Assembly: GCA_037893245.1 (NCBI GenBank)
Contig: JBAIAA010000704.1
Span: 1,674,001 to 1,738,000, forward strand
DNA from: Crossaster papposus
Lineage: Eukaryota; Echinodermata; Asteroidea; Velatida; Solasteridae
Length of the DNA stretch: 64,000 nt
Direction: 5' to 3'
Below the pieces are notes generated by a model, which saw only the letters and a list, made by a program, of their open reading frames with translations, was not told where the DNA came from and made no database searches. The stretch's first letter is position 1. Each line of letters starts with the position of its first letter. Both the position numbers and the translations under genes were made by a program. Positions 20,146-62,600 of this stretch are shown piece by piece.

Positions 20146-20395
20146 TTAACCAGTTCGCGTCGCAGGACGTTTATACGCACAAAGGTTTTTCCGAAATTCA
20201 AAACGGATGACGGATAAACACGTCAAGAGCAAGACCGGTCAGCGACCGGCTCACAGTGAGCAAGGCCGGAAATATTAGGGTGTACTACCCACAGATGCCG
20301 GCCTGAAACTCGTCTCGGATTGAGGCTCATGAAAAACAATCCCGTGCCTGGGTCCGATCAATGTAAAAATAATCCTGGCACGAACTGGTTGTTAA
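20146..20395. mobile_element. MITE, TTAA-flanked (piggyBac-like), CCAGTTCGCG termini
   Basis: Left TTAA then CCAGTTCGCGTCG; right ...GGCACGAACTGG close to TTAA. The interior AAATTCAAAACGGATGACG and the AGCAAGGCCGGAA block also occur in the copies at 52333-52574 and 62151-62347. TTAA targets are typical of piggyBac-type elements. Non-coding. Confidence 0.75.
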
Positions 20396-35951: not shown

Positions 35952-36289
35952 CCATAAACCCGTAATTTCCAAATGGCCGGGGATCACACCCCAAGTCACA
36001 ATACTAGCAACAGTAGCAATGTGTTTTTTTTTCAACAAAAATGTATACCAAGCACAATATCAAACCCAGGGACTCCCCCTCCCCTACACTCTATAGACTA
36101 TTGTTACCTAACCCACCCCCATCAAAACCTAAAAAGAAATCCTGAGAAACCCAATGAGGGCGTTCCCTCCATCTCATAAATTGCTTCATATTGAAAAAAT
36201 ATATAAATTCTGCACATTTAAATAAAAATAATAGGTCAACATATTTTGTTTTTCATACAAAAATCAAACGCTGAGCAAATTTATATTAA

Positions 36290-39197
36290 AATGCAAGGCC
36301 CTTACAATTTTAAGTCCATATAAGTTTTTGAAAAAGTCAATGTTGGCCGTTTTTTTATTAATATGCAAGTCTAACCCCTTACAAAAAATAATTTTCAAAA
36401 GAGTCAAATTTTGCCCATTTGATGATATGAACTGGCTGATGGTTGCCGAGGTGCGGCAGGCAGCAAATACTAACATGAATTGTTGGGGTGATTTGAGACA
36501 TTTTCGAAACAAATCATATTTTGGCCTAATTTTAATAAAAAATGCAAGGCTAACCCCTTTACAAATTCATTTTGGGGCGATTTGAATTTTTTTTGGAACA
36601 AATCATACTATGGACTAATTTTAATAAAAATTCAAGGCTAACCCCTTTACAAATTCATTTTGGGGAGATTTGAGACATTTTTGGAACAAGTCACATTATG
36701 GCCTAGTTTTAATATAAATGCAAGGCTTACCCCTTACAAATTAATTGTTGGGATGATTTGAGACATTTTGGAAAAAATCATATATTGGCCTAATTTCCAA
36801 ACAAATGCAAGACTAACCCCTTCCAAATACATTTTGGGGTGATTTGAGACATTTTTGGAACAAATCATATATTGCACTTATTTCCATACAAATGCAAGGC
36901 TAACACCTTACAAATACATTTTGGGGTGATTTGAGATATTTTTGGAACAAATCATATATTGGCCTAATTTCCAAACAAATGCAAGACTAACCCCTTACAA
37001 ATACATTTTGGGGTGATTTGAGACATTTTTGGAACAAATCATATATTGGACTTATTTCCATACAAATGCAAGGCTAACACCTTATACCCCCGTCACACCG
37101 GACTGGCGTCCTTACTGCGTCCTAAAATGGAGGACGTCGATGGTCGCCGTGAGAACCCCAATCCTTTTTCTTTAAAATATCAAGATTTCGGTCACCCGTC
37201 ACACCGGGGTCCTGTGCTCCGCGATCTGTACGTCTACTCGGCGTCCCCACGGCGTTCTCACCACGACCTTACCGCGTCCTTGGCGTTTCTATTGAGTTTG
37301 CACGGCGTCCCCACGGCAATCATCGGCGACCTCACGGCGTTTTTGGCGTTTCTACCACGACCTTAAGGACGCCATAGACGTGGTGGGGTCGTGGTAAGAA
37401 CCCCATAGACATGGTAAGGACGCAGTATAGGTCGCCGCGGGGTCCACGATCCATTTATTCGCGTCTCCAAGGCGACCCTACCACGTCCATACTGCGTCCC
37501 TAGGGCGTCCTTCGAGTTCCTACTGCGTTGCTACCGCGACCATGGCGACCCCAGGGCGATCCCACCGCGTCCTGAGCCAGGACGCCAAACCTCGGCGTTT
37601 ACTTTGAACATGTCCGAAGTAAACGCCGTCGCTCTGCGACCTTCGGCGTCCTTGGGGTCCCCACGGCGTCCTTCTGCGTTCTCACCACGACCCCGCGGCG
37701 TCCATGGCGTCCCTACCGCGTCCTGGGTCGCCGTAGGAACGCAGTAAGGACGCCAGTCCGGTGTGACGGGGGTATTACAAATACATTTTGGGGTGATTTG
37801 AGATATTTGGGAACAAATCATATTTTAGCCTAATTTGAATAAAAATACAAGGTTAACCCCTTACAAATACATTTTGGGACGATTTGAGACAATTTTGGAA
37901 CAAATCACATTTTGGCCTAATTTGAATACAAATGCAAGGCTAACCCCTTACAAATTAATTGTTGGGGTGATTTGAGACATTTTCGGAACAAATAACATTT
38001 TAGCCTAATTTGAATACAAATGCAAGGCTAACCCCTTACAAATACATTTTGGGACAATTTAAGACTTTTTAGAACAAATCACATTTTGGCCTAATTTGAA
38101 TAAAAATGCAAGGCTAACCCCTTACAAATACATTTTGGGGGGATTTAAGACATTTTTAGAGCAAATCATATTTTGGCCTAATTTGAATAAAAATGCAAGG
38201 CTAACCCCTTACAAATTAATTGTTGGGGTGATTTGAGACATTTGTGGAACAAATCATATTTTGGCCTAATTTGAATACAAATGCAAGGCTAACTAACCCC
38301 TTACAAATACATTTTGGGGCGATTTGAGACAATTTTGGAACAAATCATATTTTAGCCTAATTTGAATAAAAATGCAAGGCTTACCCCTTACAAATGCATT
38401 TTGGGGTGATTTAAGACATTTTTAGAACAAATCATATTTGGCCTAATTTCAATACAAATGCAAGGCTAACCCCTTACAAATACATTTTGGGGCGATTTGA
38501 GACAATTTTGGAACAAATCACATTTTGGCCTAATTTGAATACAAATGCAAGGCTAACCCCTTACAAATTAATTGTTAGGGTCATTTGAGACATTTTTGGA
38601 ACAAATCATATTTGGCCTAATTTGAATACAAATGCAAGGCTAACCCCTTACAAATACATTTTGGGGTGATTTAAGACATTTTTAGAACAAATCACATTTT
38701 GGCATAATTTGAATAAAAATGCAAGGCTAACCCCTTACAAATACATTTTGGGGCGATTTGAGACATTTTTGGAACAAATCATATTTTGGCCTAATTTGAA
38801 TAAAAATGCAAGGCTTACCCCTTACAAATGCATTTTGGGGTGATTTAAGACATTTTTAGAACAAATCACATTTTGGCATAATTTGAATAAAAATGCAAGG
38901 CTAACCCCTTACAAATACATTTTGGGGCGATTTGAGACAATTTTGGAACAAATCACATTTTGGCCTAATTTGAATAAAAATGCAAGGCTAACCCCTTACA
39001 AATTAATTGTTGGGGTGATTTGAGACATTTTTCGGAACAAATCATATTTTGGCCTAACTTGAATACAAATGCAAGGTTTACCCCTTACAAATGCATTTTG
39101 GGGTGATTTAAGACATTTTTAGAACAAATCACATTGAATCAATTTGAATAACAATGTAAGGCTAACCCCTTACAAATACATTTTGGGGTGATTTGAG
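36290..39197 (+). repeat. Left satellite arm (forward orientation)
   Basis: Monomers read AAGGCTAACCCCTTACAAAT on the plus strand. Copies before about 36540 are diverged and the arm is more variable than the right arm. It is interrupted by the GC-rich element at 37085-37774. Confidence 0.93.
37082..37777. mobile_element. 690-bp GC-rich TIR element inside the satellite
   Basis: Termini TACCCCCGTCACACCGGACT and its exact complement, identical for about 36 bases, flanked by TTA on both sides (37082-37084 and 37775-37777). The satellite monomer resumes directly after it. The interior is GC-rich and full of GGCGTCC / GGACGCC words that can fold back. TTA duplication fits PIF/Harbinger-like insertion. 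No coding capacity; its long open frames result from GC content. Confidence 0.88.
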
Positions 39198-42100
39198 ACT
39201 TATTTGTAAGGGGTTAGCCTTGCATTTTTATGAAAATTAAGACAATGCATGATTTGTTCCAAAAATGTCTTAAATCACCCCAAAATGAATTTGTAAGGGG
39301 TTAGCCTTGCATTTATATTAAAACTAGGCCAAAATATGATTTGTTCCAAAACTGTCTCAAATCACCCCAAAATGTATTTGTAAGGGGTTAGTTAGCCTTG
39401 CATGTATATTAAAACTAGGCCAAAATATGATTTGTTTCAAAAATGTCTCAAATCAGCCCAAAATGTATTTGTAAGGGGTTAGCCTTGCATTTATATTAAA
39501 ACTAGGCCAAAATATGATTTGTTTCAAAAATGTCTCAAATCACCCCAAATGTATTTGTAAGGGGTTAGGGGTTAGCCTTGCATGTATATTAAAACTAGGC
39601 CAAAATATGATTTGTTCCAAAAATGTCTCAAATCACCCCAAAATGTATTTGTAAGGGGTTAGCCTTGCATTTTTATGAAAATTAAGATGATGCATGATTT
39701 GTTCCAAAAATGTCTTAAATCACCCCAAAAAGAATTTGTAAGGGGTTAGCCTTGCATTTATATTAAAACTAGGCCAAAATATGATTTGTTCCAAAAATGT
39801 CTCAAATCACCCCAAAATGTATTTGTAAGGGGTTAGCCTTGCATTTATATTAAAACTAGGCCAAAATATGATTTGTTCCAAAAATGTCTCAAATCACCCA
39901 AAATGTATTTGTAAGGGGTTAGCCTTGCATTTATATTAAAACTAGGCCAAAATATGATTTGTTCCAAAAATGTATAAAATCACCCCAAATGTATTTGTAA
40001 GGGGTTAGCCTTGCATGTATATTAAAACTAGGCCAAAATATGATTTGTTCCAAAAATGTCTCAAATCACCCCAAAATGTATTTGTAAGGGGTTAGCCTTG
40101 CATTTTTATGAAAATTAAGATGATGCATGATTTGTTCCAAAAATGTCTTAAATCACCCCAAAAAGAATTTTTAAGGGGTTAGCCTTGCATTTATATTAAA
40201 ACTAGGCCAAAATATGATTTGTTCCAAAAATGTCTCAAATCACCCCAAAATGTATTTGTAAGGGGTTAGCCTTGCATTTATATTAAAACTAGGCCAAAAT
40301 ATGATTTGTTCCAAAAATATCTCAAATCAGCCCAAAATGTATTTGTAAGGGGTTAGCCTTGCATTTTTATGAAAATTAAGACAATGCATGATTTGTTCCA
40401 AAAATGTCTTAAATCACCCCAAAAGGAATTTGTAAAAGCCTTGCATTTATATTAAAACTAGGCCAAAATATGATTTGTTCCAAAAATGTCTCAAATCACC
40501 CTAAAATGTATTTGTAAGGGGTTAGCCTTGCATTTTTATGAAAATTAAGACAATGCATGATTTTTTCCAAAAATGTCTTAAATCACCCCAAAAAGATTTT
40601 GTAAGTGGTTAGCCTTGCATTTATATTAAAACTAGGCCAAAATATGATTTGTTCCAAAAATGTCTCAAATCAGCCCAAAATGTATTTGTAAGGGGTTAGC
40701 CTTGCATTTTTATGAAAATTAAGACAATGCATGATTTGTTCCAAAAATGTCTTAAATCATCCCAAAAGAATTTGTAAGGGGTTAGCCTTGCATTTATATT
40801 AAAACTAGGCCAAAATATGATTTGTTCCAAAAATGTCTCAAATCACCCTAAAATGTATTTGTAAGGGGTTAGCCTTGCATTTATATTAAAACTAGGCCAA
40901 AATATGATTTGTTCCAAAAATGTCTCAAATCACCCAAAATGTATTTGTAAGGGGTTAGCCTTGCATTTATATTAAAACTAGGCCAAAATATGATTTGTTT
41001 CAAAAATGTATGAAATCACCCCAAAATGTATTTGTAAGGGGTTAGCCTTGCATTTTTATGAAAATTAAGACATTGCATGATTTGTTCCAAAAATGTCTTA
41101 AATCACCCCAAAAGGAATTTGTAAAAGCCTTGCATTTATATTAAAACTAGGCCAAAATATGATTTGTTCCAAAAATGTCTCAAATCACCCTAAAATGTAT
41201 TTGTAAGGGGTTAGCCTTGCATTTTTATGAAAATTAAGACAATGCATGATTTTTTCCAAAAATGTCTTAAATCACCCCAAAAAGATTTTGTAAGTGGTTA
41301 GCCTTGCATTTCTATTAAAACTAGGCCAAAATATGATTTGTTCCAAAAATGTCTCAAATCAGCCCAAAATGTATTTATGAAAATTAAGACAATGCATGAT
41401 TTGTTCCAAAAATGTCTTAAATCATCCCAAAAGAATTTGTAAGGGGTTAGCCTTGCATTTATATTAAAACTAGGCCAAAATATGATTTGTTCCAAAAATG
41501 TCTCAAATCACCCTAAAATGTATTTGTAAGGGGTTAGCCTTGCATTTATATTAAAACTAGGCCAAAATATGATTTGTTCCAAAAATGTATGAAATCACCC
41601 CAAAATGTATTTGTAAGGGGTTAGCCTTGCATTTATATTAAAACTAGGCCAAAATATGATTTGTTCCAAAAATGTCTCAAATCACCCCAAATGTATTTGT
41701 AAGGGGTTAGGGGTTAGCCTTGCATGTATATTAAAACTAGGCCAAAATATGATTTGTTCCAAAAATGTCTCAAATCACCCCAAAATGTATTTGTAAGGGG
41801 TTAGCCTTGCATTTATATTAAAACTAGGCCAAAATATGATTTGTTCCAAAAATGTCTCAAATCACCCCAAAATGTATTTGTAAGGGGTTAGCCTTGCATT
41901 TATATTAAAACTAGGCCAAAATATGATTTGTTCCAAAAATATCTCAAATCAGCCCAAAATGTATTTGTAAGGGGTTAGCCTTGCATTTTTATGAAAATTA
42001 AGATGATGCATGATTTGTTCCAAAAATGTCTTAAATCACCCCAAAAAGAATTTGTAAGGGGTTAGCCTTGCATTTTTATGAAAATTAAGACAATGCATGA

Positions 42101-45100
42101 TTTGTTCCAAAAATGTCTTAAATCACCCCAAAAGGAATTTGTAAAAGCCTTGCATTTATATTAAAACTAGGCCAAAATATGATTTGTTCCAAAAATGTCT
42201 CAAATCACCCCAAAATGTATTTGTAAGGGGTTAGCCTTGCATTTATATTAAAACTAGGCCAAAATATGATTTGTTCCAAAAATATCTCAAATCAGCCCAA
42301 AATGTATTTGTAAGGGGTTAGCCTTGCATTTTTATGAAAATTAAGACAATGCATGATTTGTTCCAAAAATGTCTTAAATCACCCCAAAAGGAATTTGTAA
42401 AAGCCTTGCATTTATATTAAAACTAGGCCAAAATATGATTTGTTCCAAAAATGTCTCAAATCACCCCAAAATGTATTTGTAAGGGGTTAGCCTTGCATTT
42501 ATATTAAAACTAGGCCAAAATATGATTTGTTCCAAAAATGTCTCAAATCACCCCAAAATGTATTTGTAAGGGGTTAGCCTTGCATTTATATTAAAACTAG
42601 GCCAAAATATGATTTGTTCCAAAAATATCTCAAATCAGCCCAAAATGTATTTGTAAGGGGTTAGCCTTGCATTTTTATGAAAATTAAGACAATGCATGAT
42701 TTGTTCCAAAAATGTCTTAAATCATCCCAAAAGAATTTGTAAGGGGTTAGCCTTGCATTTATATTAAAACTAGGCCAAAATATGATTTGTTCCAAAAATG
42801 TCTCAAATCACCCTAAAATGTATTTGTAAGGGGTTAGCCTTGCATTTATATTAAAACTAGGCCAAAATATGATTTGTTCCAAAAATGTATGAAATCAGCC
42901 CAAAATGTATTTGTAAGGGGTTAGCCTTGCATTTATATTAAAACTAGGCCAAAATATGATTTGTTCCAAAAATGTATAAAATCACCCCAAATGTATTTGT
43001 AAGGGGTTAGCCTTGCATGTATATTAAAACTAGGCCAAAATATGATTTGTTCCAAAAATGTCTCAAATCACCCCAAAATGTATTTGTAAGGGGTTAGCCT
43101 TGCATTTTTATGAAAATTAAGATGATGCATGATTTGTTCCAAAAATGTCTTAAATCACCCCAAAAAGAATTTTTAAGGGGTTAGCCTTGCATTTATATTA
43201 AAACTAGGCCAAAATATGATTTGTTCCAAAAATGTCTCAAATCACCCCAAAATGTATTTGTAAGGGGTTAGCCTTGCATTTTTATGAAAATTAAGACAAT
43301 GCATGATTTGTTCCAAAAATGTCTTAAATCACCCCAAAAGGAATTTGTAAAAGCCTTGCATTTATATTAAAACTAGGCCAAAATATGATTTGTTCCAAAA
43401 ATGTCTCAAATCACCCTAAAATGTATTTGTAAGGGGTTAGCCTTGCATTTTTATGAAAATTAAGACAATGCATGATTTTTTCCAAAAATGTCTTAAATCA
43501 CCCCAAAAAGATTTTGTAAGTGGTTAGCCTTGCATTTATATTAAAACTAGGCCAAAATATGATTTGTTCCAAAAATGTCTCAAATCAGCCCAAAATGTAT
43601 TTGTAAGGGGTTAGCCTTGCATTTTTATGAAAATTAAGACAATGCATGATTTGTTCCAAAAATGTCTTAAATCATCCCAAAAGAATTTGTAAGGGGTTAG
43701 CCTTGCATTTATATTAAAACTAGGCCAAAATATGATTTGTTCCAAAAATGTCTCAAATCACCCTAAAATGTATTTGTAAGGGGTTAGCCTTGCATTTATA
43801 TTAAAACTAGGCCAAAATATGATTTGTTCCAAAAATGTCTCAAATCACCCAAAATGTATTTGTAAGGGGTTAGCCTTGCATTTATATTAAAACTAGGCCA
43901 AAATATGATTTGTTTCAAAAATGTATGAAATCACCCCAAAATGTATTTGTAAGGGGTTAGCCTTGCATTTATATTAAAACTAGGCCAAAATATGATTTGT
44001 TCCAAAAATATCTCAAATCAGCCCAAAATGTATTTGTAAGGGGTTAGCCTTGCATTTTTATGAAAATTAAGACATTGCATGATTTGTTCCAAAAATGTCT
44101 TAAATCACCCCAAAAGGAATTTGTAAAAGCCTTGCATTTATATTAAAACTAGGCCAAAATATGATTTGTTCCAAAAATGTCTCAAATCACCCTAAAATGT
44201 ATTTGTAAGGGGTTAGCCTTGCATTTTTATGAAAATTAAGACAATGCATGATTTTTTCCAAAAATGTCTTAAATCACCCCAAAAAGATTTTGTAAGTGGT
44301 TAGCCTTGCATTTCTATTAAAACTAGGCCAAAATATGATTTGTTCCAAAAATGTCTCAAATCAGCCCAAAATGTATTTATGAAAATTAAGACAATGCATG
44401 ATTTGTTCCAAAAATGTCTTAAATCATCCCAAAAGAATTTGTAAAGGGTTAGCCTTGCATTTATATTAAAACTAGGCCAAAATATGATTTGTTCCAAAAA
44501 TGTCTCAAATCACCCTAAAATGTATTTGTAAGGGGTTAGCCTTGCATTTATATTAAAACTAGGCCAAAATATGATTTGTTCCAAAAATGTATGAAATCAC
44601 CCCAAAATGTATTTGTAAGGGGTTAGCCTTGCATTTATATTAAAACTAGGCCAAAATATGATTTGTTCCAAAAATGTCTCAAATCACCCCAAATGTATTT
44701 GTAAGGGGTTAGGGGTTAGCCTTGCATGTATATTAAAACTAGGCCAAAATATGATTTGTTCCAAAAATGTCTCAAATCACCCCAAAATGTATTTGTAAGG
44801 GGTTAGCCTTGCATTTATATTAAAACTAGGCCAAAATATGATTTGTTCCAAAAATGTCTCAAATCACCCCAAAATGTATTTGTAAGGGGTTAGCCTTGCA
44901 TTTATATTAAAACTAGGCCAAAATATGATTTGTTCCAAAAATATCTCAAATCAGCCCAAAATGTATTTGTAAGGGGTTAGCCTTGCATTTTTATGAAAAT
45001 TAAGATGATGCATGATTTCTTCCAAAAATGTCTTAAATCACCCCAAAAAGAATTTGTAAGGGGTTAGCCTTGCATTTTTATGAAAATTAAGACAATGCAT

Positions 45101-48100
45101 GATTTGTTCCAAAAATGTCTTAAATCACCCCAAAAGGAATTTGTAAAAGCCTTGCATTTATATTAAAACTAGGCCAAAATATGATTTGTTCCAAAAATGT
45201 CTCAAATCACCCCAAAATGTATTTGTAAGGGGTTAGCCTTGCATTTATATTAAAACTAGGCCAAAATATGATTTGTTCCAAAAATATCTCAAATCAGCCC
45301 AAAATGTATTTGTAAGGGGTTAGCCTTGCATTTTTATGAAAATTAAGACAATGCATGATTTGTTCCAAAAATGTCTTAAATCACCCCAAAAGGAATTTGT
45401 AAAAGCCTTGCATTTATATTAAAACTAGGCCAAAATATGATTTGTTCCAAAAATGTCTCAAATCACCCCAAAATGTATTTGTAAGGGGTTAGCCTTGCAT
45501 TTATATTAAAACTAGGCCAAAATATGATTTGTTCCAAAAATGTCTCAAATCACCCCAAAATGTATTTGTAAGGGGTTAGCCTTGCATTTATATTAAAACT
45601 AGGCCAAAATATGATTTGTTCCAAAAATATCTCAAATCAGCCCAAAATGTATTTGTAAGGGGTTAGCCTTGCATTTTTATGAAAATTAAGACAATGCATG
45701 ATTTGTTCCAAAAATGTCTTAAATCACCCAAAATGTATTTGTAAGGGGTTAGCCTTGCATTTATATTAAAACTAGGCCAAAATATGATTTGTTCCAAAAA
45801 TGTATGAAATCACCCCAAAATGTATTTGTAAGGGGTTAGCCTTGCATTTATATTGAAACTAGGCCAAAATATGATTTGTTCCAAAAATATCTCAAATCAG
45901 CCCAAAATGTATTTGTAAGGGGTTAGCCTTGCATTTTTATGAAAATTAAGACATTGCATGATTTGTTCCAAAAATGTCTTAAATCACCCCAAAAGGAATT
46001 TGTAAAAGCCTTGCATTTATATTAAAACTAGGCCAAAATATGATTTGTTCCAAAAATGTCTCAAATCACCCTAAAATGTATTTGTAAGGGGTTAGCCTTG
46101 CATTTTTATGAAAATTAAGACAATGCATGATTTTTTCCAAAAATGTCTTAAATCACCCCAAAAAGATTTTGTAAGTGGTTAGCCTTGCATTTCTATTAAA
46201 ACTAGGCCAAAATATGATTTGTTCCAAAAATGTCTCAAATCAGCCCAAAATGTATTTATGAAAATTAAGACAATGCATGATTTGTTCCAAAAATGTCTTA
46301 AATCATCCCAAAAGAATTTGTAAGGGGTTAGCCTTGCATTTATATTAAAACTAGGCCAAAATATGATTTGTTCCAAAAATGTCTCAAATCACCCTAAAAT
46401 GTATTTGTAAGGGGTTAGCCTTGCATTTATATTAAAACTAGGCCAAAATATGATTTGTTCCAAAAATGTCTCAAATCACCCAAAATGTATTTGTAAGGGG
46501 TTAGCCTTGCATTTATATTAAAACTAGGCCAAAATATGATTTGTTCCAAAAATGTATGAAATCACCCCAAAATGTATTTGTAAGGGGTTAGCCTTGCATT
46601 TATATTAAAACTAGGCCAAAATATGATTTGTTCCAAAAATGTCTCAAATCACCCCAAATGTATTTGTAAGGGGTTAGGGGTTAGCCTTGCATGTATATTA
46701 AAACTAGGCCAAAATATGATTTGTTCCAAAAATGTCTCAAATCACCCCAAAATGTATTTGTAAGGGGTTAGCCTTGCATTTATATTAAAACTAGGCCAAA
46801 ATATGATTTGTTCCAAAAATGTCTCAAATCACCCCAAAATGTATTTGTAAGGGGTTAGCCTTGCATTTATATTAAAACTAGGCCAAAATATGATTTGTTC
46901 CAAAAATATCTCAAATCAGCCCAAAATGTATTTGTAAGGGGTTAGCCTTGCATTTTTATGAAAATTAAGATGATGCATGATTTGTTCCAAAAATGTCTTA
47001 AATCACCCCAAAAAGAATTTGTAAGGGGTTAGCCTTGCATTTTTATGAAAATTAAGACAATGCATGATTTGTTCCAAAAATGTCTTAAATCACCCCAAAA
47101 GGAATTTGTAAAAGCCTTGCATTTATATTAAAACTAGGCCAAAATATGATTTGTTCCAAAAATGTCTCAAATCACCCCAAAATGTATTTGTAAGGGGTTA
47201 GCCTTGCATTTATATTAAAACTAGGCCAAAATATGATTTGTTCCAAAAATATCTCAAATCAGCCCAAAATGTATTTGTAAGGGGTTAGCCTTGCATTTTT
47301 ATGAAAATTAAGACAATGCATGATTTGTTCCAAAAATGTCTTAAATCACCCCAAAAGGAATTTGTAAAAGCCTTGCATTTATATTAAAACTAGGCCAAAA
47401 TATGATTTGTTCCAAAAATGTCTCAAATCACCCCAAAATGTATTTGTAAGGGGTTAGCCTTGCATTTATATTAAAACTAGGCCAAAATATGATTTGTTCC
47501 AAAAATGTCTCAAATCACCCCAAAATGTATTTGTAAGGGGTTAGCCTTGCATTTATATTAAAACTAGGCCAAAATATGATTTGTTCCAAAAATATCTCAA
47601 ATCAGCCCAAAATGTATTTGTAAGGGGTTAGCCTTGCATTTTTATGAAAATTAAGACAATGCATGATTTGTTCCAAAAATGTCTTAAATCATCCCAAAAG
47701 AATTTGTAAGGGGTTAGCCTTGCATTTATATTAAAACTAGGCCAAAATATGATTTGTTCCAAAAATGTCTCAAATCACCCTAAAATGTATTTGTAAGGGG
47801 TTAGCCTTGCATTTATATTAAAACTAGGCCAAAATATGATTTGTTCCAAAAATGTATGAAATCAGCCCAAAATGTATTTGTAAGGGGTTAGCCTTGCATT
47901 TTTATTAAAACTAGGCCAAAATATGATTTGTTCCAAAAATGTCTCAAATCACCCCAAAATGTATTTGTAAGGGGTTAGCCTTGCATTTATATTAAAACTA
48001 GGCCAAAATATGATTTGTTCCAAAAATATCTCAAATCAGCCCAAAATGTATTTGTAAGGGGTTAGCCTTGCATTTTTATGAAAATTAAGATGATGCATGA

Positions 48101-50640
48101 TTTGTTCCAAAAATGTCTTAAATCACCCCAAAAAGAATTTGTAAGGGGTTAGCCTTGCATTTATATTAAAACTAGGCCAAAATATGATTTGTTCCAAAAA
48201 TGTCTCAAATCACCCCAAAATGTATTTGTAAGGGGTTAGCCTTGCATTTATATTAAAACTAGGCCAAAATATGATTTGTTCCAAAAATATCTCAAATCAG
48301 CCCAAAATGTATTTGTAAGGGGTTAGCCTTACATTTTTATGAAAATTAAGACAATGCATGATTTGTTCCAAAAATGTCTTAAATCACCCCAAAAGGAATT
48401 TGTAAAAGCCTTGCATTTATATTAAAACTAGGCCAAAATATGATTTGTTCCAAAAATGTCTCAAATCACCCCAAAATGTATTTGTAAGGGGTTAGCCTTG
48501 CATTTATATTAAAACTAGGCCAAAATATGATTTGTTCCAAAAATATCTCAAATCAGCCCAAAATGTATTTGTAAGGGGTTAGCCTTGCATTTTTATGAAA
48601 ATTAAGACAATGCATGATTTGTTCCAAAAATGTCTTAAATCATCCCAAAAGAATTTGTAAGGGGTTAGCCTTGCATTTATATTAAAACTAGGCCAAAATA
48701 TGATTTGTTCCAAAAATGTCTCAAATCACCCTAAAATGTATTTGTAAGGGGTTAGCCTTGCATTTATATTAAAACTAGGCCAAAATATGATTTGTTCCAA
48801 AAATGTATGAAATCAGCCCAAAATGTATTTGTAAGGGGTTAGCCTTGCATTTTTATGAAAATTAAGACAATGCATGATTTGTTCCAAAAATGTCTTAAAT
48901 CATCCCAAAAGAATTTGTAAGGGGTTAGCCTTGCATTTATATTAAAACTAGGCCAAAATATGATTTGTTCCAAAAATGTCTCAAATCACCCTAAAATGTA
49001 TTTGTAAGGGGTTAGCCTTGCATTTATATTAAAACTAGGCCAAAATATGATTTGTTCCAAAAATGTCTCAAATCACCCAAAATGTATTTGTAAGGGGTTA
49101 GCCTTGCATTTATATTAAAACTAGGCCAAAATATGATTTGTTCCAAAAATGTATGAAATCACCCCAAAATGTATTTGTAAGGGGTTAGCCTTGCATTTAT
49201 ATTAAAACTAGGCCAAAATATGATTTGTTCCAAAAATGTCTCAAATCACCCCTTGCATTTTTATGAAAATTAAGATGATGCATGATTTGTTCCAAAAATG
49301 TCTTAAATCACCCCAAAAAGAATTTGTAAGGGGTTAGCCTTGCATTTATATTAAAACTAGGCCAAAATATGATTTGTTCCAAAAATGTCTCAAATCACCC
49401 CAAAATGTATTTGTAAGGGGTTAGCCTTGCATTTATATTAAAACTAGGCCAAAATATGATTTGTTCCAAAAATGTCTCAAATCACCCAAAATGTATTTGT
49501 AAGGGGTTAGCCTTGCATTTATATTAAAACTAGGCCAAAATATGATTTGTTCCAAAAATGTATGAAATCACCCCAAATGTATTTGTAAGGGGTTAGCCTT
49601 GCATTTATATTAAAACTAGGCCAAAATATGATTTGTTCCAAAAATGTCTCAAATCACCCCAAAATGTATTTGTAAGGGGTTAGCCTTGCATTTATATTAA
49701 AACTAGGCCAAAATATGATTTGTTCCAAAAATATCTCAAATCAGCCCAAAATGTATTTGTAAGGGGTTAGCCTTGCATTTTTATGAAAATTAAGACAATG
49801 CATGATTTGTTCCAAAAATGTCTTAAATCACCCCAAAAGGAATTTGTAAAAGCCTTGCATTTATATTAAAACTAGGCCAAAATATGATTTGTTCCAAAAA
49901 TGTCTCAAATCAGCCCAAAATGTATTTGTAAGGGGTTAGCCTTGCATTTTTATGAAAATTAAGACAATGCATGATTTGTTCCAAAAATGTCTTAAATCAC
50001 CCCAAAAGAATTTGTAAGGGGTTAGCCTTGCATTTATATTAAAACTAGGCCAAAATATGATTTGTTCCAAAAATGTCTCAAATCACCCTAAAATGTATTT
50101 GTAAGGGGTTAGCCTTGCATTTTTATGAAAATTAAGACAATGCATGATTTGTTCCAAAAATGTCTTAAATCACCCCAAAATGTATTTGTAAGGGGTTAGC
50201 CTTGCATTTATATTAAAACTAGGCCAAAATATGATTTGTTCCAAAAATATCTCAAATCAGCCCAAAATGTATTTGTAAGGGGTTAGCCTTGCATTTTTAT
50301 GAAAATTAAGACAATGCATGATTTGTTCCAAAAATGTCTTAAATCAGCCCAAAAAGATTTTGTAAGGGGTTAGCCTTGCATTTATATTAAAACTAGGCCA
50401 AAATATGATTTGTTCCAAAAATGTCTCAAATCAGCCCAAAATGTATTTGTAAGGGGTTAGCCTTGCATTTTTATGAAAATTAAGACAATGCATGATTTGT
50501 TCCAAAAATGTCTTAAATCACCCCAAAAGAATTTGTAAGGGGTTAGCCTTGCATTTATATTAAAACTAGGCCAAAATATGATTTGTTCCAAAGATGTCTT
50601 AAATCGCCCCAAAATTGTAAGGAAGGGATTAGGCTTGCAT
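39198..50640 (-). repeat. Right satellite arm (reverse orientation) with 3-kb higher-order repeats
   Basis: Monomers now read TTTGTAAGGGGTTAGCCTTG on the plus strand. Variant marks recur at fixed spacing: GGGGTTAGGGGTTAGCC at about 41702, 44704 and 46671; GACATTGCATG at 41069, 44071 and 45950; GATGATGCATG at about 42003, 45005 and 46971. The spacings 3002, 2915, 1966 and 1879 differ by exactly one 87-bp monomer, so these are recent multi-monomer duplications with monomer-sized gains or losses. Confidence 0.93.
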
Positions 50641-51764
50641 TTTTGTTAAAAATGCAAGACTAAAACCTTGCAATTTGAAAATTTTGGAAATTGTTTGGGT
50701 AATTTTTGTTAAAAGGCCAACCCTTACAATTTCTTATATGTCCAAAAAGGTCTTAAAAAGTTTTAAAAGCAAAAAGAATTGCCTGGAACAGGATCCGTTA
50801 TTGAAAGATTCTCACCTTGAAGTTGAATTCCACCATTTTTGATCGGTCACCCAGCCTCGTTGGACCATGGGGAGAGGCCAGACGACACGAGGAAGCTTGC
50901 GTTCAGTGGTGGGGTTGACCGAGAAATGGGCGGCAAACGCATCAATGTCAAACTCATGGTAAGTAGGGTTCAGCCGCCAATAACTATTTTGTTAGGCACT
51001 GGCACTAGTTAGCAATGCAACTGCAAGGCCTATTCTGTTAGCATTTCGAAATTCTTCCTTGGCAAAAACTGAATGAAGAACTCTAAACTAGCAACAGCAA
51101 AAGTCAGGCTTTCAATGTGAAATTTCACGGGTATTTGCCGCGTCAGGGCCAAGGATTTGATGGTACTTCCACTAACAACAGCAACATCAATGGATTCCGA
51201 AAAACGTTCCCGATACTCGATAGACCAGGTCAAATCTCTACAATTGTGTACAAACCCAATGAGATAACACCTCCAACTTAAGTTCAGCTAGGGCCAGGTC
51301 CTAGGCCTAATTAAATCATGTGTTGATAAATGGCAGACCCAGTCATGAGCTAAATAAATCCATCAGCTTTTCTTTCACAGCAAAACCAAAGGTCTGTATC
51401 AAGTTTAATTAAACTTATCCAGCTTGCTCAAATATCAAAGACCTAGCACCGGCACCGCGCGCAGCAGACGACAAGTTGCATATCATTAGTGTTTTTTACT
51501 TTCGATCCCTGATTGGCTAAACCTCTTGGCTGTGATTGGTCGAGTTCATGAATAATTAGTGGTAGAATTCTGCTCAGAATCCCAACTTGTGCAAAAACCT
51601 CACCTTTTATTGTGTTTTAATGGCAACAGAGGGCACAATTGTAATGTTCTAACACAGCCTTTACTCCTTAAATTATAAAACTGTACCACATTATGGCCAC
51701 ACATGGCTGTAATTTGCCATTGTGACAAATTGCCTTTATTGAAATTGATTTTTCTGAGAAATTA
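50641..51764. other. Unique-sequence block right of the satellite
   Basis: A few decayed satellite words to about 50760, then non-repetitive DNA. Holds the exon candidate 50816-50983 and, near 51510-51545, two plus-strand GATTGG(C/T) boxes (CCAAT on the minus strand), compatible with a minus-strand promoter. A minus open frame at 51030-51233 is unsupported. Confidence 0.45.
50816..50983 (-). CDS. Candidate exon, unknown protein (minus strand)
   Basis: The reverse strand is open for about 58 codons, reading YWRLNPTYHEFDIDAFAAHF, then SVNPTTERKLPRVVWPLPMV and QRGWVTDQKWWNSTS, ending at a good donor AG|GTGAGA. GC content is about 54% in an AT-rich neighbourhood, as expected for coding DNA. The suggested acceptor (CTAACAAAATAG) has a poor pyrimidine tract. 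In another frame ATGGTGGAATTC starts a short MVEFNFK exon ending at the same donor. I do not recognise the family. Any downstream exons would lie across the satellite, or the piece is a gene relic. Confidence 0.3.
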
Positions 51765-52115
51765 ACCTTGCATATTTATCAAAATTTTGGCCAAAATTGG
51801 ATTTTCCTTGGAAATGTAAAATTGCAAGGGGTTTAGTTTAGCCTTGCATTTTAATTACAATTTGTCAAACTTTGATTTTTCTTGGAAATTATGAATTGTT
51901 TAAAGGTTTAGCCTTGCATTTCAATTACAATTGGCCAAAATTAGATTTTCCTTGGAAATTTAAAATAGTAAGGGAGCCTTGCATTTTAATTAAAATTGGC
52001 CAAATTTAAATTTTACTTGGACATTTTAAATTGCAAGGGCTTATTTTAACCTTGCATTTTAATTAAAATTAAATCAAATTTTATTAAAATGCAAAGCTTA
52101 CCCCTTTACAATTTT
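51765..52115 (-). repeat. Diverged tandem repeat related to the satellite
   Basis: Four to five units of about 75-80 bp sharing TTTAGCCTTGCATTTTAATT, AATTGGCCAAA and TTTTCCTTGGAAAT. GCCTTGCATTT, the (G)GCCAAA word and the AAGGGGTTTAG stem are those of the 87-bp satellite in the same orientation as its right arm, but the rest differs. Confidence 0.75.
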
Positions 52116-52332
52116 TAATTGTAGATGAAATGTAAAGGTAAAGATTACAAGTTATATTAATTCACTCCAACAACTCAATGGAACAGGTGGCTGAAAGCAG
52201 CTGTTTAATACCAAACCCAGTGAGAATGAATAAACATGCAAGTGTATAAGAATATTGCCACACACTGTAGTTTAATTAAGCCATTCATGCCAGCTCAACG
52301 CAATAGATCTGATATTCTATACTGTATATAAT

Positions 52333-52574
52333 TTAACCAGTTCGCGCCGGATGACGTATATAAACGCAAACATTTTCCCAAATTCAAAACGGATGACGCA
52401 TAAACACGCCAAGTTCAAGTTCGGAAATGAATGCCAGCAGCGAGCAAGGCCGGAAGTGCGTGGGTGTGCTTCCCGGCACTATCAGCCTGAACACGCTTCG
52501 GATCCAGTTTCGTTAAAAATAATCCCGCCCCTCGGCTCGGCGATGTTAAAATAATCCCGGCGCGAACTGGTTAA
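52333..52574. mobile_element. piggyBac-like MITE, intact TTAA on both sides
   Basis: TTAA at 52333-52336 and 52571-52574 flank CCAGTTCGCGCCGG and its inverted CCGGCGCGAACTGG. The interior shares AAATTCAAAACGGATGACG with the 20.1-kb copy. Best-preserved copy of this family in the window. Confidence 0.85.
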
Positions 52575-53518: not shown

Positions 53519-54135
53519 AAAGCGTACAAAAATATACATTTAAAGCGTACAAAAATATACATTTAAAGCATACAAAAATACGTATCAAAGTAGAAAGATT
53601 ATCACTAATGCATAAAATCCTTAGACCCTAACACCACGAGCATAAACAAACACCAGGTCAACAAGTTAAGCCAATGATTTGTATTCAATTAATTCTGGGT
53701 ATAAAATTGTAATATACAAATTTTAACTTTGCAAAAGGTGGGGTATAATTAAACATTTAAAGTGAACAAAAATACTTATCAAAGTACAAAGATTATCACA
53801 AATGCATAATATCCTCAGACCCTAACATCATAAGCATAAACAAACCCAGTTCAACAAGTTTAGCCAATGATCTGTATTCAATTAATTCTGGGTATAAAAT
53901 TGTAATATACAAATTATAACTTTGCAAAAGGTGAAGTATAATTAAACATTTTCTTTTAAAGTGAACAACAAAATACGTATCAAAGTAGGAAGATTATCAC
54001 AAATGCATAATATCCTCAGACCCTAACATCATGAGCATAAAGAAAACCTGGTCAACAAGTTAAGCCAATGATCTGTACTCAATTAATTCTGGGTATAAAA
54101 TTGTAATCTAAACATTATAGCTTTACAAAAGCGTC
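53519..54135 (+). repeat. Tandem repeat, 195-200-bp unit, 2.7 copies
   Basis: Starts with three 23-bp units (AAAGCGTACAAAAATATACATTT). Then the block GATTATCAC(T/A)AATGCATAA, CCTAACA(C/T)CA and GGGTATAAAATTGTAAT recurs starting near 53591, 53785 and 53986. Copies are about 90% alike. Non-coding. Confidence 0.85.
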
Positions 54136-56611: not shown

Positions 56612-59600
56612 CTGTGGAGGGAGAGGTGGGGGGGGGGGGGGAGAATTTGGGTGGATACATTTTGAGTTTACTTTTTGAAGTTTAGTATAAGTGGACAGTA
56701 TACCTTTTACAACTATCCAAAAAGTAACTAACCAAAATATTGTTCAAAAGCTTACTTGGTGTACAAATATTCATGAAACTAAAACTCCCTGTGAAATTAT
56801 TCCTTCTGGCATGCTGTAACTTAAAAAACAAATACTAATAAAAGAAGTCCAAAAAGGCATCTCAGAAATTCATTTTTGGAAATTTCCATTAAGTAGTTGG
56901 TACAAAATCCAAATATTACAATATTATTTTCTCGGAATATACAGCAATCGCAGAGATAAAACTTTGTCAGATTAGTTGTAAAGCACCATTTTTAAAATTT
57001 TAAGAACTTTTGCTGCATCTAACGATAAAAATGAACAACTGACAAATAGTAGACTATAACTTTAGGTTAAGTTGGAAATTGCCTTTTGCAGAGCAGTGCA
57101 ACCAAAATTGGAAGGTATTTTTTAGTTTTTTTTAGTTTGACTTCAATATTCCTGACGGCTATCATTGGTGTCCATCTTACCAGACTGTTGAGTATGTCAG
57201 GACGATTCAAACGCAGGACCTTGGTAGTCTGCATGATGTCCACCATGTCCTCTTCACGAAGCCTCTCCAGGGAGTTCTTGACGACACAAAATACCCCGCT
57301 GCGATTCAGCCCATCTCTGAACAAGACAGGAAAGAAGTGACGGGAAACCGATTTTCAGCAGTTATCCAAGCATTTGGTCTTCAATACCGAACATAATCAA
57401 TGGTCTTGAAATAACAGTTTTTACCTTTTGTTCCAGGAACACATAGCAAAAAAGACTACGGTACCAAGAATTGTAGAATTCTAACAGAATGTTTTGAAAC
57501 CAAATAAGTTAAGAGGGCCTAATATTTTGATCTCAACGAGATCTTCTTCAGAGATAAAATGGCTGTGTACAAGAAACAAACATATATAGGGCAAGAATGT
57601 TTTGATGACATTTTTATTACCAACAGTCACATCCAAATGGCACTAATTCAGATCATAGTAAGTAATGAAGCTTAAACTTGTTTTGTAAAAGTGCCATGGC
57701 CTAGTGGTCCAGAGCATTGAATTTGTGGCCTGCGGGTAGTTCTGCAGGTTGTGGGTTCGGGCCTGGCCTGGGCTAGGACACTTCTATGCTTAATATGGGT
57801 AGAGGCATTATTAACCCTCCTATGGTTTCACCTTTCAAAACCTTTCAAAATCTGCTTACTGGGCAAAATGGATATAAAAAAGTATAAACCTTTCAAAACG
57901 CTCCTGAATTTGTTGCTACTGCACTACCACACCTTTCAATACCGTTTGAAAGGAATTGAAAGGTAGAAAAACTGGGCTATGGTATACCCTATGATAAAGG
58001 TATGGGAAGTCTATCAGAAAACGACCAGACCTTCCAAAACCTTGCGAAAGAAAATGAAAGGTGGAGCTATTGCTCAACCAAATATCAGTACAGTTGCTAT
58101 GCATACATGGTTTGACCTTTCAAAACCTTTTGAAATGTTTTGAAAGGTAGAATTACTCCCCAGCACATTATATAGAATATCTCTCACAGAAAACAGCTAA
58201 ACATTTCAAAACATTTCAACTTTTATTTGGTATGGTATGCCCCTATGATAAAGGTATGGGAAGTCTATCAGAAAACGGCCAGACTTTCCAAAACCTCACA
58301 CCAGTTTGTTCAGAGAGTTGTTTTACCTTTCAAAATCTTTCCTAGGTTCCTTTTGTCAGACAGCTTTCTCACCTTTCAAAACCCTTTAGTCCAGGAAACT
58401 TGAAAGGTTTTGAAAGGTCTGACAGCTCTATGGTAACTGCACGGTATATAAGAGGGTTAATGCCTTGCTGTGGACTAGTTACCCATCCCAACCCTATTCA
58501 TACAAGCCATTTGATTGACTTGAGGCCTAGCCTTGTGTCGAGTCCAATAAGCCCATAATTATGAATCGTTTTGCAACTTACATGCAGTGGACGAGAATAT
58601 TTGCTCGTTTGTTCTTGGTATTGTATTTCTCCACAGTCTGGATGAGTCGGATCAAGGTGCTGGATGATTGGGGCACCTCCTGGCCCAGCGGCCAATCAGT
58701 GATGTGGTAGTGCCTCAAAAAGTGAGACCTCTGTGAATAAAACATGTAATTTAACACCCACCAGAATGGTGAATAAGACTCAAGTTGTTGAGAGCTGTAA
58801 TGTAACAAGTTAGAACATGCTTAATCATTTAATCTGTGGAGAAAGCTCTTGCAAGGAACAGCGGAGGGCTAGGATTTTTAATGTTTTGAAAGGGGGGGGG
58901 GTAGGGGGTTATGATGGATTAGGAGAACTTCAAGATGGGCGGTGAGGGGTAGTTAAACTTGGATTGGGAAGTAAGCTTAGATTGGGAAGGGTTGAGGGTG
59001 AGCAGTGTTACTCTGAGAGACAAGCTTGGGAACAGTGGGCCAATTTCATAGAGCTACTTAAGCACAAAATTTGCTTATAAGCACACAAAAACCTTGCTTA
59101 AGTAAAACCAGCTTATAACTCTATGTGATGTATATTGTTTGTGATTGGTATTTAGTTGTTGTTAGCTTAGCATATAACAATTACATGGAATTGTAACCTA
59201 ATTTTACTAAGCAAGAGTTTTTGTGCTTAATCTTTATGCCTAATAAGCAGCTCTATGGAATTGGACTTAGGACAACCAGGATCGGTATGGATTCTGTGTG
59301 CGCGTACGCCCTCAGTGTGCACAAACCGCTCCTCATAGCCGCTCCTCATAGCCACTCCTCATAGCTGCTTCCCATAGCCGCTCCTCATAGCCACTCCTCA
59401 TAGCCGCTTCCCATAGCCGCTCCTCATAGCCGCTTCCGATAGCCTGCTTCACACAGCCGCTCCCCATTGCTGCTCCCCGTAGCCGCTCCCCGTAGCCACT
59501 CCCCATAGCCGCTCCCCATAGCCGCTTCCCAGTGTCAGGAGGTTAAAAGTGCAATTAATTTTTGTTCTGATGATGTTAGTCAGAAACTCACCCAAGAAAG

Positions 59601-62600
59601 AAAGCAGACAGCACGCAGCTGGTAGGAGAGCTATTAGACCCTATCTGCAGGACACCGAAGGTTGATAAAGATTTAGCCAGAAAGAAAAGACTTTAAAGGT
59701 GGAATATACCTTTTGCAGATATCCAAAAAGTAACCAACCAAAATAAGCTTACTTGTGGTAAAGTAATCAATGATTCTAAACTCTATTTTGAAGAAAATAA
59801 CAAAAGGATTTCCAAATGTGCGTTTGAGAGACACACTTTTGGACATTTCTGCAAATAGTGCGTTCAAAGTGTTCAAATGACGCACGGCGCACGGCGCACG
59901 TGCTACTCTAGGTCGATTCAGTGTCTGACACGTGCGTAGCTGCAATCCTCTGGCTGAGAACGCGCTCTTAACGCAGAACGTGGTCGCAATTAAAAAGCGA
60001 CTCAAAAAAGCATTTTTCTTTATATTTTGAGCAATTTTGCTGCTTAAAATGAAAAAAATGCACATTGTTTAAGAAAGACGAAGTAACAAAGAAAATAACA
60101 GTTAGAGAAAACAGAGGACACCAAAGATTTAAAGAGGTTTTAGCTCAGCACTGAAAGTACAACATTTTGAATTTTATATAAAAATTAAATCTTTAAAAAA
60201 CCTATGCTGCAAAACGTCTTTCCAATGGTAGCACAAGCTGTTTGATTAATTTGGATGAAGAAAGATTTATTTTGTTTAGTTTTTACTATACAAAAATAAA
60301 CCAAGGGAAAATGACAGCGACCTCCGGAATACTGGAACGGCACTCTACTAACTGAGCTCTATGTTAGCAGTCTCCCAAATTGTCAGTATCCTCATTGAGC
60401 AGGGATGTAGTCGAGTCCATCACAAGTCCCTGCAAGTCCCAGCAAGTTCCTGCAAGTCCATCACAAGTCTTTCAGTTCCAATTCAAATCACAAGCTATTC
60501 AAATCAGCTTTGACAAAAGCATTCCTTTGTCATTGTTCATCCAGTTACTTGTGACTGCCTTTATGAAAGGACTTGTGACTGGCTTCACGAAAGGACTTGT
60601 GAACGGACTTGCAGGGACTCGACTACAACCCTGTCATTGAGTAATCCACACAATGTAAACTGCAAATTTAAGAGCGTCAGCAATTTGAAATTTATTTTGT
60701 TTATTCTATGTAGCCAGGGGCCAATTTCATAGAGCTGCTAAGCACAACAATTTGCTTAGCATGACAATTTGTCCTTGGCAAAAACAAGTTTACAGACCAA
60801 ATTTTCACCTGATCTTTATTGTTCTGGATTGATAATCAGCCTTTTTTGTGCTTAGCATGAAAAACACGTATAATTTTGGCTGGTAACCTGTTTTCAATGA
60901 GCAAGACTTTTTTGTGCTAAGCAAATTTTTTTTGCTTAGCAGCTCTATGAAATTGGACCCTGGTTTCATATTGGCAACTGGTACTCGATTCTATAATCTA
61001 GAATCGGTTCTTAACATCGTACAATCTTCCCCTATCACCTTTTGTCGACGATGTTCTAGCTTCATCTGCTTGATGTTGAACCCTTCTACGTCTGCTGCGT
61101 TGGTGGTGGTCAAGGTGAATGGACCACAATCCTCGCTCCCCATGTCTGGCCAATACTGGGGGCAATTCTACCAGTTGCAAATAATAAATTAAGAAATTAT
61201 TTCGAAAAAAATAAAAATAAGCCAAAATAAGGCTTTCAATCAGACCTAGGCGAGGTGAGTAGAATCAACATTTTCAAAAAGTCAGGGAACTAGACTATCC
61301 GGTCTGCCTTCCTTTAATGGATGTGTAACCGGTTGCAATTTGCAATTAACTGAATCGGGGGTAGTGTTTAAAAAGTCCGTTTTTTCAAAGATGGTCGGCC
61401 GACAATCATTAGAATTTAAAACAAAAATTGTCCACTTTTCCTGAAAATGACAGAACATCCGGTGCCATGATTTTGCAGGGTGCTTGAGACTGTTATTCAC
61501 TTAAAAATATTTCATAATTGTAATTTTTTGTTTTAATTAACCATAACCCTGCCAGATCCAGCACAGTGCATCTGTGGTGACTGCTTGACCTTGCTGCACT
61601 CTGCACACAAGTCAATGTGACAAAGTATGCAATCTGTTGCGTCTGGCAGGGTTTCTAGCCAAAATACCCTGGAGGGTTAGGGTTAATTTTGTTTTATGTT
61701 TGCAAATTTGTATATTACCTTTAAACCAACAGTAAATAACATAAAACCTACACATTTCAGCCTAAATCACAGCAGTTCAACCAGCAACAGTGTGACCAAA
61801 GTAATGACCACAAAGTGGTCAAAGTAGGAAAGAAATGTGGATGTACGGACAGGCCCAAATACTAAAAAACACCTTACAGGATCATCGGGGTCCAGTGCAT
61901 TTAGCATCACTACGCTGGAGATCTGGTAGTCATAGACCAATCGCCATAGGTCTAGCACCGTGCCTGGCAATGGAGCCTGGGTAACCACGGCAACATCCAT
62001 CTGCTTGAAGCCCTAGGATAAAAAAAAAACTAAATCAGTAATCATCTTTAGGTTAATATCTGCTTCCTCATTGCAGTGTTCAGTAGGGTCACCACTCGAC
62101 ACTCGCTATACTTTTACAAGCAAAAGCCGACATACGATCGGTTTTCGATTTACCAGTTCGCGCCGGAGGACGTATATACATGCAAAGTTTTCCCCAGATT
62201 TAAAACGGATGTCGCATAAACACGTCACGAGCAAGGCTGGAAATGTCTGTCAGCAGCGAGCAAGGCTGGAAATGCGGGGGTGTGCTCTTTGGTACCATCG
62301 GCTTGAACCCGCCTCGGTACGAGTTTCGTTAAAAATAAAGCCGCGCAGGAAAGGAAATTGTCCCCACAACTCAGTCTGCTTTTTTCAAACAAAAGAACCT
62401 GTCCCCACAACTAGGTGTATGCTAGAATACGACACTCCACATAACAATCCACTGATCTGGTCTTACATCCACAAACGAAGCGTTGATGTAGTTGTACTCC
62501 ACGCCATCTTCTCTGGGCGTCATCAGAAATGGCCGACAGAACTCAGCTGTAAGAAAGGAGTAAAGGTTGATGTCAAGTCTCGAAGAAAAGTCCGTTTACC

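Follow-up and report, generated by a model that had tools for sequence, protein, structure and literature searches.

How does a single satellite array come to run in both directions? The question is raised by a locus of the sea star Crossaster papposus, in the 64,000-nucleotide stretch analysed here (the window, C704:1674001-1738000, from an assembly of 1,023,315,904 bases, or about 1.02 Gb, in 1,841 contigs), where about 156 copies of an 87-bp monomer form an array whose orientation changes partway along. The explanation we favour, with a probability of roughly 55%, is that this is a local intergenic array of a dispersed 87-bp satellite, related to a second family of 65-68-bp units, and that it carries an old inverted junction whose reverse arm expanded later.

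The array and its strand flip

Two methods locate the array and its two orientations. Tandem Repeats Finder reported 87-bp arrays at 36483-37084 and 37775-39206, together with overlapping rows covering 39201-50651, and a profile scan of both strands, in which only matches longer than 60 bp were counted, found 23 forward and 133 reverse monomers. By both, monomers are on the + strand between 36481 and the flip, and beyond it on the - strand as far as about 50651. The locus is made of many head-to-tail copies of one unit, as a satellite is, and these form kilobase-scale inverted subarrays of about 2.0 kb (+) and 11.4 kb (-). As assembled, the change of direction is real, and it is sharp, falling at 39199/39200, where GATTTGAGAC (39190-39199) is followed directly by TTATTTGTAAGG (39200-39211). 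In terms of monomers the flip occupies 39199-39203, the forward monomer ending after GATTTGAGAC and the reverse one picking up at about ATTTGTAAGG, and the arms abut with no leftover or middle sequence between them.

The original prediction of a satellite array with an internal strand flip is borne out by both methods, and the position and letters that it gave for the junction agree with ours within 1-2 bases. It had assigned about 2.9 kb to the forward arm and about 11.4 kb to the reverse; the second figure stands, but the forward arm contains only about 2.0 kb of monomers, with a 690-bp element inside it. Two further corrections concern the left edge and the number of flips. The left edge (36278-36421) consists of divergent related units of another length, and because blocks of 65-68-bp-family units alternate strand to the right of the array, at 50641-50748 (+), 51752-52070 (-) and 52083-52124 (+), the locus contains several orientation switches.

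The two arms differ in internal structure. Among the 133 monomers of the reverse arm (39203-50651, - strand) there are 40 distinct sequences, and exact repeat blocks reach 1,420 bp (41515 versus 46482, an offset of 4,967), with others lying 3,002, 1,965 and 1,879 apart. The forward arm, delimited on the + strand by the same two methods, has seven diverged 87-bp-type monomers in its left part (36481-37084) and 16 monomers plus one truncated at the flip in its right part (37775-39199); all 23 are distinct, and no exact repeat is longer than 109 bp. Judged by its few distinct monomers and long exact blocks, the reverse arm is young, and the forward arm looks older. The two parts of the forward arm are separated by the 690-bp element (37085-37774), which has 36-bp perfect inverted ends, a GC content of 60% and TTA on both sides, and which looks like a small non-autonomous DNA transposon. 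A TTA three-base duplication is typical of PIF/Harbinger elements. Aligned to each other, the arms show 88.0% identity over 1,432 columns in the best alignment, a difference of about 12%, and their best pairing includes 20 perfect runs of 21 bp or more, seven of 30 bp or more, and a longest run of 41 bp.

The repeat family across the genome

The 87-bp family is scattered through the genome, in which 388 matches were counted, a lower bound obtained with 36 of 1,504 candidates scored. Twenty further array stretches were fetched, not all of them independent, since three lie on contig C527, three on C195, and the pairs L005/L007 and L017/L018 share long flanks. A profile search found monomers of both strands within or beside the array in four of the 20 (L002, L007, L013 and L015). 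The looser scan with a 25-base core, which allowed up to 7 mismatches and gave 2 matches in 288,441 bases of a mononucleotide-shuffled control, found opposite units adjoining arrays in seven (L001, L002, L007, L008, L013, L015 and L020). A weak opposite stub (17.5 bits) also ends L021, which is the continuation of L005. Arrays with a 68-bp period and a matching core, AAAATGCAAGGCTAACCCCTTACAA, occur elsewhere as L024 on C947 and L025 on C179.

Conservation of one inversion site across many arrays was not found. The exact junction pattern (GATTTGAGAC, 0-20 bases, then TTTRTAAGGGG), searched without mismatches so that variants could be missed, occurs twice in the genome, once in the window and once at C325:305585 in L007, and a reversed control gave none; the flips in L002, L013, L015 and L020 join at other positions. 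The joins of the window and L007 agree within about 4 bases on both sides, an agreement with an estimated chance of about 1% for a random flip, and this constitutes weak evidence. Shared descent of the two flips is not claimed, as the reverse stub of L007 carries L007's own variants (AACAATG type), and a palindromic right end common to both was considered and dropped, the L007 end being readable as an ordinary decaying monomer.

Monomers were also compared among 24 groups, including the two window arms and the 20 other stretches, with at most 14 monomers sampled per group and all 23 for the forward arm. Mean identity within a group exceeded that to every other group in 17 of the 24, was tied in two, and did not in five, namely L011, the forward group of L013, both L015 groups and the forward arm of the window. 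Locus-specific homogenisation, or concerted evolution, is found for the family, and the reverse arm shows it.

Several features of individual stretches were noted along the way. Upstream of the array, L005 (C527:296500-306499) and L007 (C325:300500-310499) have about 2.8 kb in common, at 91% and 78%; part of this flank resembles a gene's 3' end, with AATAAA motifs, and in both loci the array starts shortly after it. L017 (on C315) and L018 (on C441) belong to closely similar subfamilies and share a 2.5-kb flank at 95%, as would alleles on two contigs or a segmental duplication. L004 and L006 are the two ends of contig C527, and the 87-bp arrays at both may stop the assembler. A common short tandem repeat is interleaved with the 87-bp arrays of L009, L013 and L014, its L013 copy containing ATATCCCATAATTGA.

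Origin of the inverted junction

We infer that the inverted junction was acquired some time ago, most likely through an inverted duplication or a template switch inside the repeat, either of which is our preferred guess for its origin. Unequal exchange between direct repeats would then have homogenised and enlarged each arm, and would not have acted across the flip. Because exchange between inverted arms cannot homogenise them in the way that it homogenises direct repeats, the arms would have evolved apart. The forward arm would have ceased expanding, decayed and received the transposon insertion, and the reverse arm would have kept growing through repeated duplication of multi-monomer blocks. 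Such a history looks like ordinary satellite-DNA evolution and not like a new kind of element, because the repeat is dispersed in the genome and similar switches are present at some other copies. The array is probably without a function of its own.

This reading is favoured by the dispersal of the family and its locus-specific homogenisation, by the flips at other loci and the recurrence of this flip's pattern on another contig, by the contrast in distinct monomers and exact blocks between the arms, and by two relationships between them. Compared over 86 columns, their consensus sequences disagree at 3, and among the 23 groups each has the other as its closest match, a pairing recovered in 306 and 400 of 500 resamplings, and one monomer of the forward arm, at 36648 and near the arm's far end, is of the reverse-arm type (93%). 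Other observations weigh against it. Support from the consensuses is moderate (61% and 80%), and they were compared over profile columns built from window monomers, with insertions in other loci ignored. Mean monomer identity between the forward and reverse arms is 86.7%, compared with means to L001 and L002 of 88.1-88.8% for the forward arm and 87.8-89.2% for the reverse arm; the internal identity of the forward arm, 88.0%, is itself lower than its identity to another group. Arm identity across the flip has no gradient with distance, ranging from 83 to 93% per 100 bp out to 900 bp. Opposite units were absent by core scan from 13 of the 20 stretches, many of whose arrays run past the fetched stretch. 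Finally, the loops of the hairpins at flips measure about 5 to 22 nt by eye, which is not clearly unlike random joining, and loop length was dropped as a signature of snap-back since these few values fit random joining. On this mixed evidence we hold with moderate confidence that the arms would share a common local ancestry and have since evolved separately.

The main rival to an inverted junction, possible in our estimation, dispenses with inversion and inverted duplication altogether: two adjacent short seeds in opposite orientation would both have been amplified until they touched. The means just given speak for it, since they put the arms no nearer to each other than to L001 or L002. So do short units of the 65-68-bp or 87-bp type in mixed orientation, which lie beside arrays in L002, L007, L008, L015 and L020 as well as at 50641-52124 of the window. 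There, about 1.6 forward units of the 65-68-bp family (50641-50748, from sequence matches and the core scan, with most genome matches at 70-73% on C179, C947 and other contigs) make the second orientation switch at the end of the reverse arm; reverse units follow at 51752-52070 (Tandem Repeats Finder, BLAST, profile and core scan), and a lone forward fragment at 52083-52124 (BLAST, profile and core scan). Against it stand a clean junction with no residual sequence between the arms, arm consensuses that are mutually nearest, and the presence of a reverse-type monomer within the forward arm.

A doubtful third explanation is that the locus descends from a foldback transposon, an element with long inverted repeats of tandem units, and that one of its arms then enlarged to form a satellite. 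Arrays of the Tetris element arose in such a manner (PMC4079207, as far as its excerpted account goes), and the arms at this locus are likewise inverted and flanked by divergent related outer units in opposite orientation. The left block (36278-36421, + strand) consists of two units akin to the 65-68-bp family, recognised by BLAST, at 68-79% to the monomer, and by weak profile matches (E 0.054 and 0.16); it is separated from the forward arm by about 60 bp of other sequence and is 71% identical over 152 columns to the right outer block on the - strand. The outer blocks are inverted relative to each other at that identity, but further orientation switches, as well as roughly 1 kb of other sequence (50760-51751), come before the right one. 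A target duplication at the outer edges is not above chance, the matches falling within the unit itself and at least 8 bases being shared by 172 of 500 pairs taken at random. Ends common to the arrays were not recognised by eye in the 20 stretches, among the matches listed (200 of 814). Long flanks are common only to L005/L007 and L017/L018, as would be expected of duplicated or allelic regions, and whatever else the stretches have in common consists of interspersed repeats, whose distance from the array varies. Thirteen of the 20 stretches have a single orientation in the core scan, and the flip pattern is present at only two genome places. With a target duplication at chance level and no shared ends recognised, a foldback origin is disfavoured. 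A Helentron or HINE carrier was likewise rejected, since shared left and right modules with a 3' palindrome were not recognised beside the arrays of the 20 stretches.

It is unlikely that the flip is an assembly join of two unrelated arrays placed head-on. Exact repeats of up to 1,420 bp, as in the reverse arm, are hard for assemblers, arrays of the family reach both ends of C527 or stop within about 25 bases of them (L004 and L006), and mean identity puts certain other loci closer to each arm than the opposite arm is. The difference of about 12% between the arms argues against a palindromic read artefact, however, and the flip lies deep within a contig of at least 1.73 Mb, a matching junction pattern was assembled on another contig, and the arm consensuses are mutually nearest.

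The right-hand sequence that separates the reverse arm from its outer block has features of its own. The part of it that was searched (50760-51000) has no second match in the assembly. A 59-amino-acid open frame lies on the - strand at 50812-50991, with GTAAGT within it on the opposite strand; at E up to 1 neither this frame nor the 39- and 64-amino-acid frames of the same piece matches Pfam, and the first is also without a PDB match. An interspersed repeat with three window copies (20146-20390, 52333-52572 and 62149-62344) also occurs in L004, L007, L012 and L020. A tandem repeat of about 201 bp, in 2.9 copies at 53553-54131, has no relation to the array.

Pairing, neighbouring genes and inverted satellites elsewhere

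That the arms can pair with each other, as had been proposed, is supported by their alignment, their perfect runs and predicted folding, with the limit that the pairing would be imperfect at 88.0% identity. A 247-nt stretch centred on the flip has a predicted energy as DNA of -82.3 kcal/mol, whereas 34 in-arm stretches of the same length average -25.8 and go no lower than -29.9, and 1,507 nt centred on the flip give -633.9 kcal/mol, compared with -162 to -171 for four in-arm stretches. A long hairpin, a giant cruciform or double-stranded RNA from the array is, on these predictions, physically possible. Special folding of a two-monomer stretch was considered and set aside, its z of -0.95 against shuffles being unremarkable, and no RNA family reached its gathering threshold within the window.

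The placement of the array between converging genes, also part of the original prediction, is broadly upheld, with the left gene only tentatively named. To the left, on the + strand at about 29.65-29.73 kb, a 27-residue match to the C-terminal end of Pfam SSDP (SSDP/SSBP-like) is weak (E 0.0015; 19.1 bits against a cut-off of 27). To the right, two frames on the - strand exceed the cut-off of the tyrosine phosphatase family Y_phosphatase, with 35.7 bits for 61767-62012 and 28.3 bits for 57067-57354, and among PDB entries the former also finds LAR-type receptor phosphatases (E 1.2e-12). About 6.5 kb separates the left gene match from the repeat cluster, and about 6.5 kb the array end from the right gene match. 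By motif count, candidate AATAAA signals occur seven times on the + strand of 29.6-36.3 kb, and the complement TTTATT five times in 50.7-56.7 kb. From these matches a convergent gene setting is plausible. Flips at some other family loci mean that flips are not special to this gene pair.

Strand flips inside satellites have already been published, in Tribolium and in primates. The closest parallel is Tribolium madens, in which, according to the available text of PMC13081366, TmSat1 and TmSat2 form macro-dyad symmetries with highly conserved inversion sites; as in Crossaster, one satellite changes strand into kilobase-scale inverted subarrays, and long stems are predicted at the inversion site. 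Its authors state there that macro-dyad symmetries of satellites are documented only in Tribolium, and the paper is cited in the accessible part of PMC13427858. The beetle arrays are described as multi-megabase and probably pericentromeric, with 2,044 and 3,486 near-identical inversion sites of two types, whereas the Crossaster array is 14 kb long and lies between genes, its arms are very unequal, and its junction pattern was found twice. Primate alpha-satellite, in the portion of PMC10312506 at hand, likewise reverses strand within its arrays, some of the reversals being polymorphic, but there the inversions are megabase-sized and lie in the centromere arrays of orangutan and macaque, different in sequence and in scale. 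Tetris/TIR-220 of Drosophila virilis resembles the present locus in its inverted arms of tandem repeats, and its arrays outgrow the element; the excerpted description (PMC4079207) also gives it external flanking domains, a middle domain and 8-10-bp target duplications, none of which was recognised at the Crossaster array, where the arms meet directly. The Helentron-borne Cg_HINE arrays of Crassostrea gigas, as outlined in the text available from PMC7492417, are similar in being many satellite-like arrays dispersed through an assembled genome, but have common flanking modules, subterminal inverted repeats and a 3' palindrome, none of which was recognised around the Crossaster arrays. A keyword search of the open-access literature did not find the 87-bp repeat by name, searches by sequence and most subscription papers being outside its scope.

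The Tribolium parallel suggests a more ambitious account, in which the locus, small and flanked by genes, would be a minimal macro-dyad of that type outside beetles and centromeres, its flip arising again and again through hairpin-driven template switching at one favoured point of the monomer, which two loci on different contigs would share, and serving as a source of hairpins or double-stranded RNA; we consider this improbable, about as much so as an assembly join. Least likely of all is that the flip is kept as a functional long-range dyad whose hairpin, cruciform or double-stranded RNA acts, for example, as a boundary or small-RNA source between genes, for which the strong predicted pairing, the position between converging genes (the left one tentative) and the highly conserved inversion sites of Tribolium madens (PMC13081366, as excerpted) would speak, and against which stand arms that are unequal (2.0 versus 11.4 kb) and diverged and a junction pattern at two genome places as compared with thousands of sites in Tribolium.

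A kilobase-scale strand reversal in an intergenic satellite that belongs to a multi-locus family makes flips comparable between loci. Such comparison bears on how reversals arise and on whether inverted arms escape homogenisation, a question illustrated by the present pair of arms, of which one has decayed and the other has grown recently. If it is true that one position in the monomer is preferred for flips, the mechanism would become testable.

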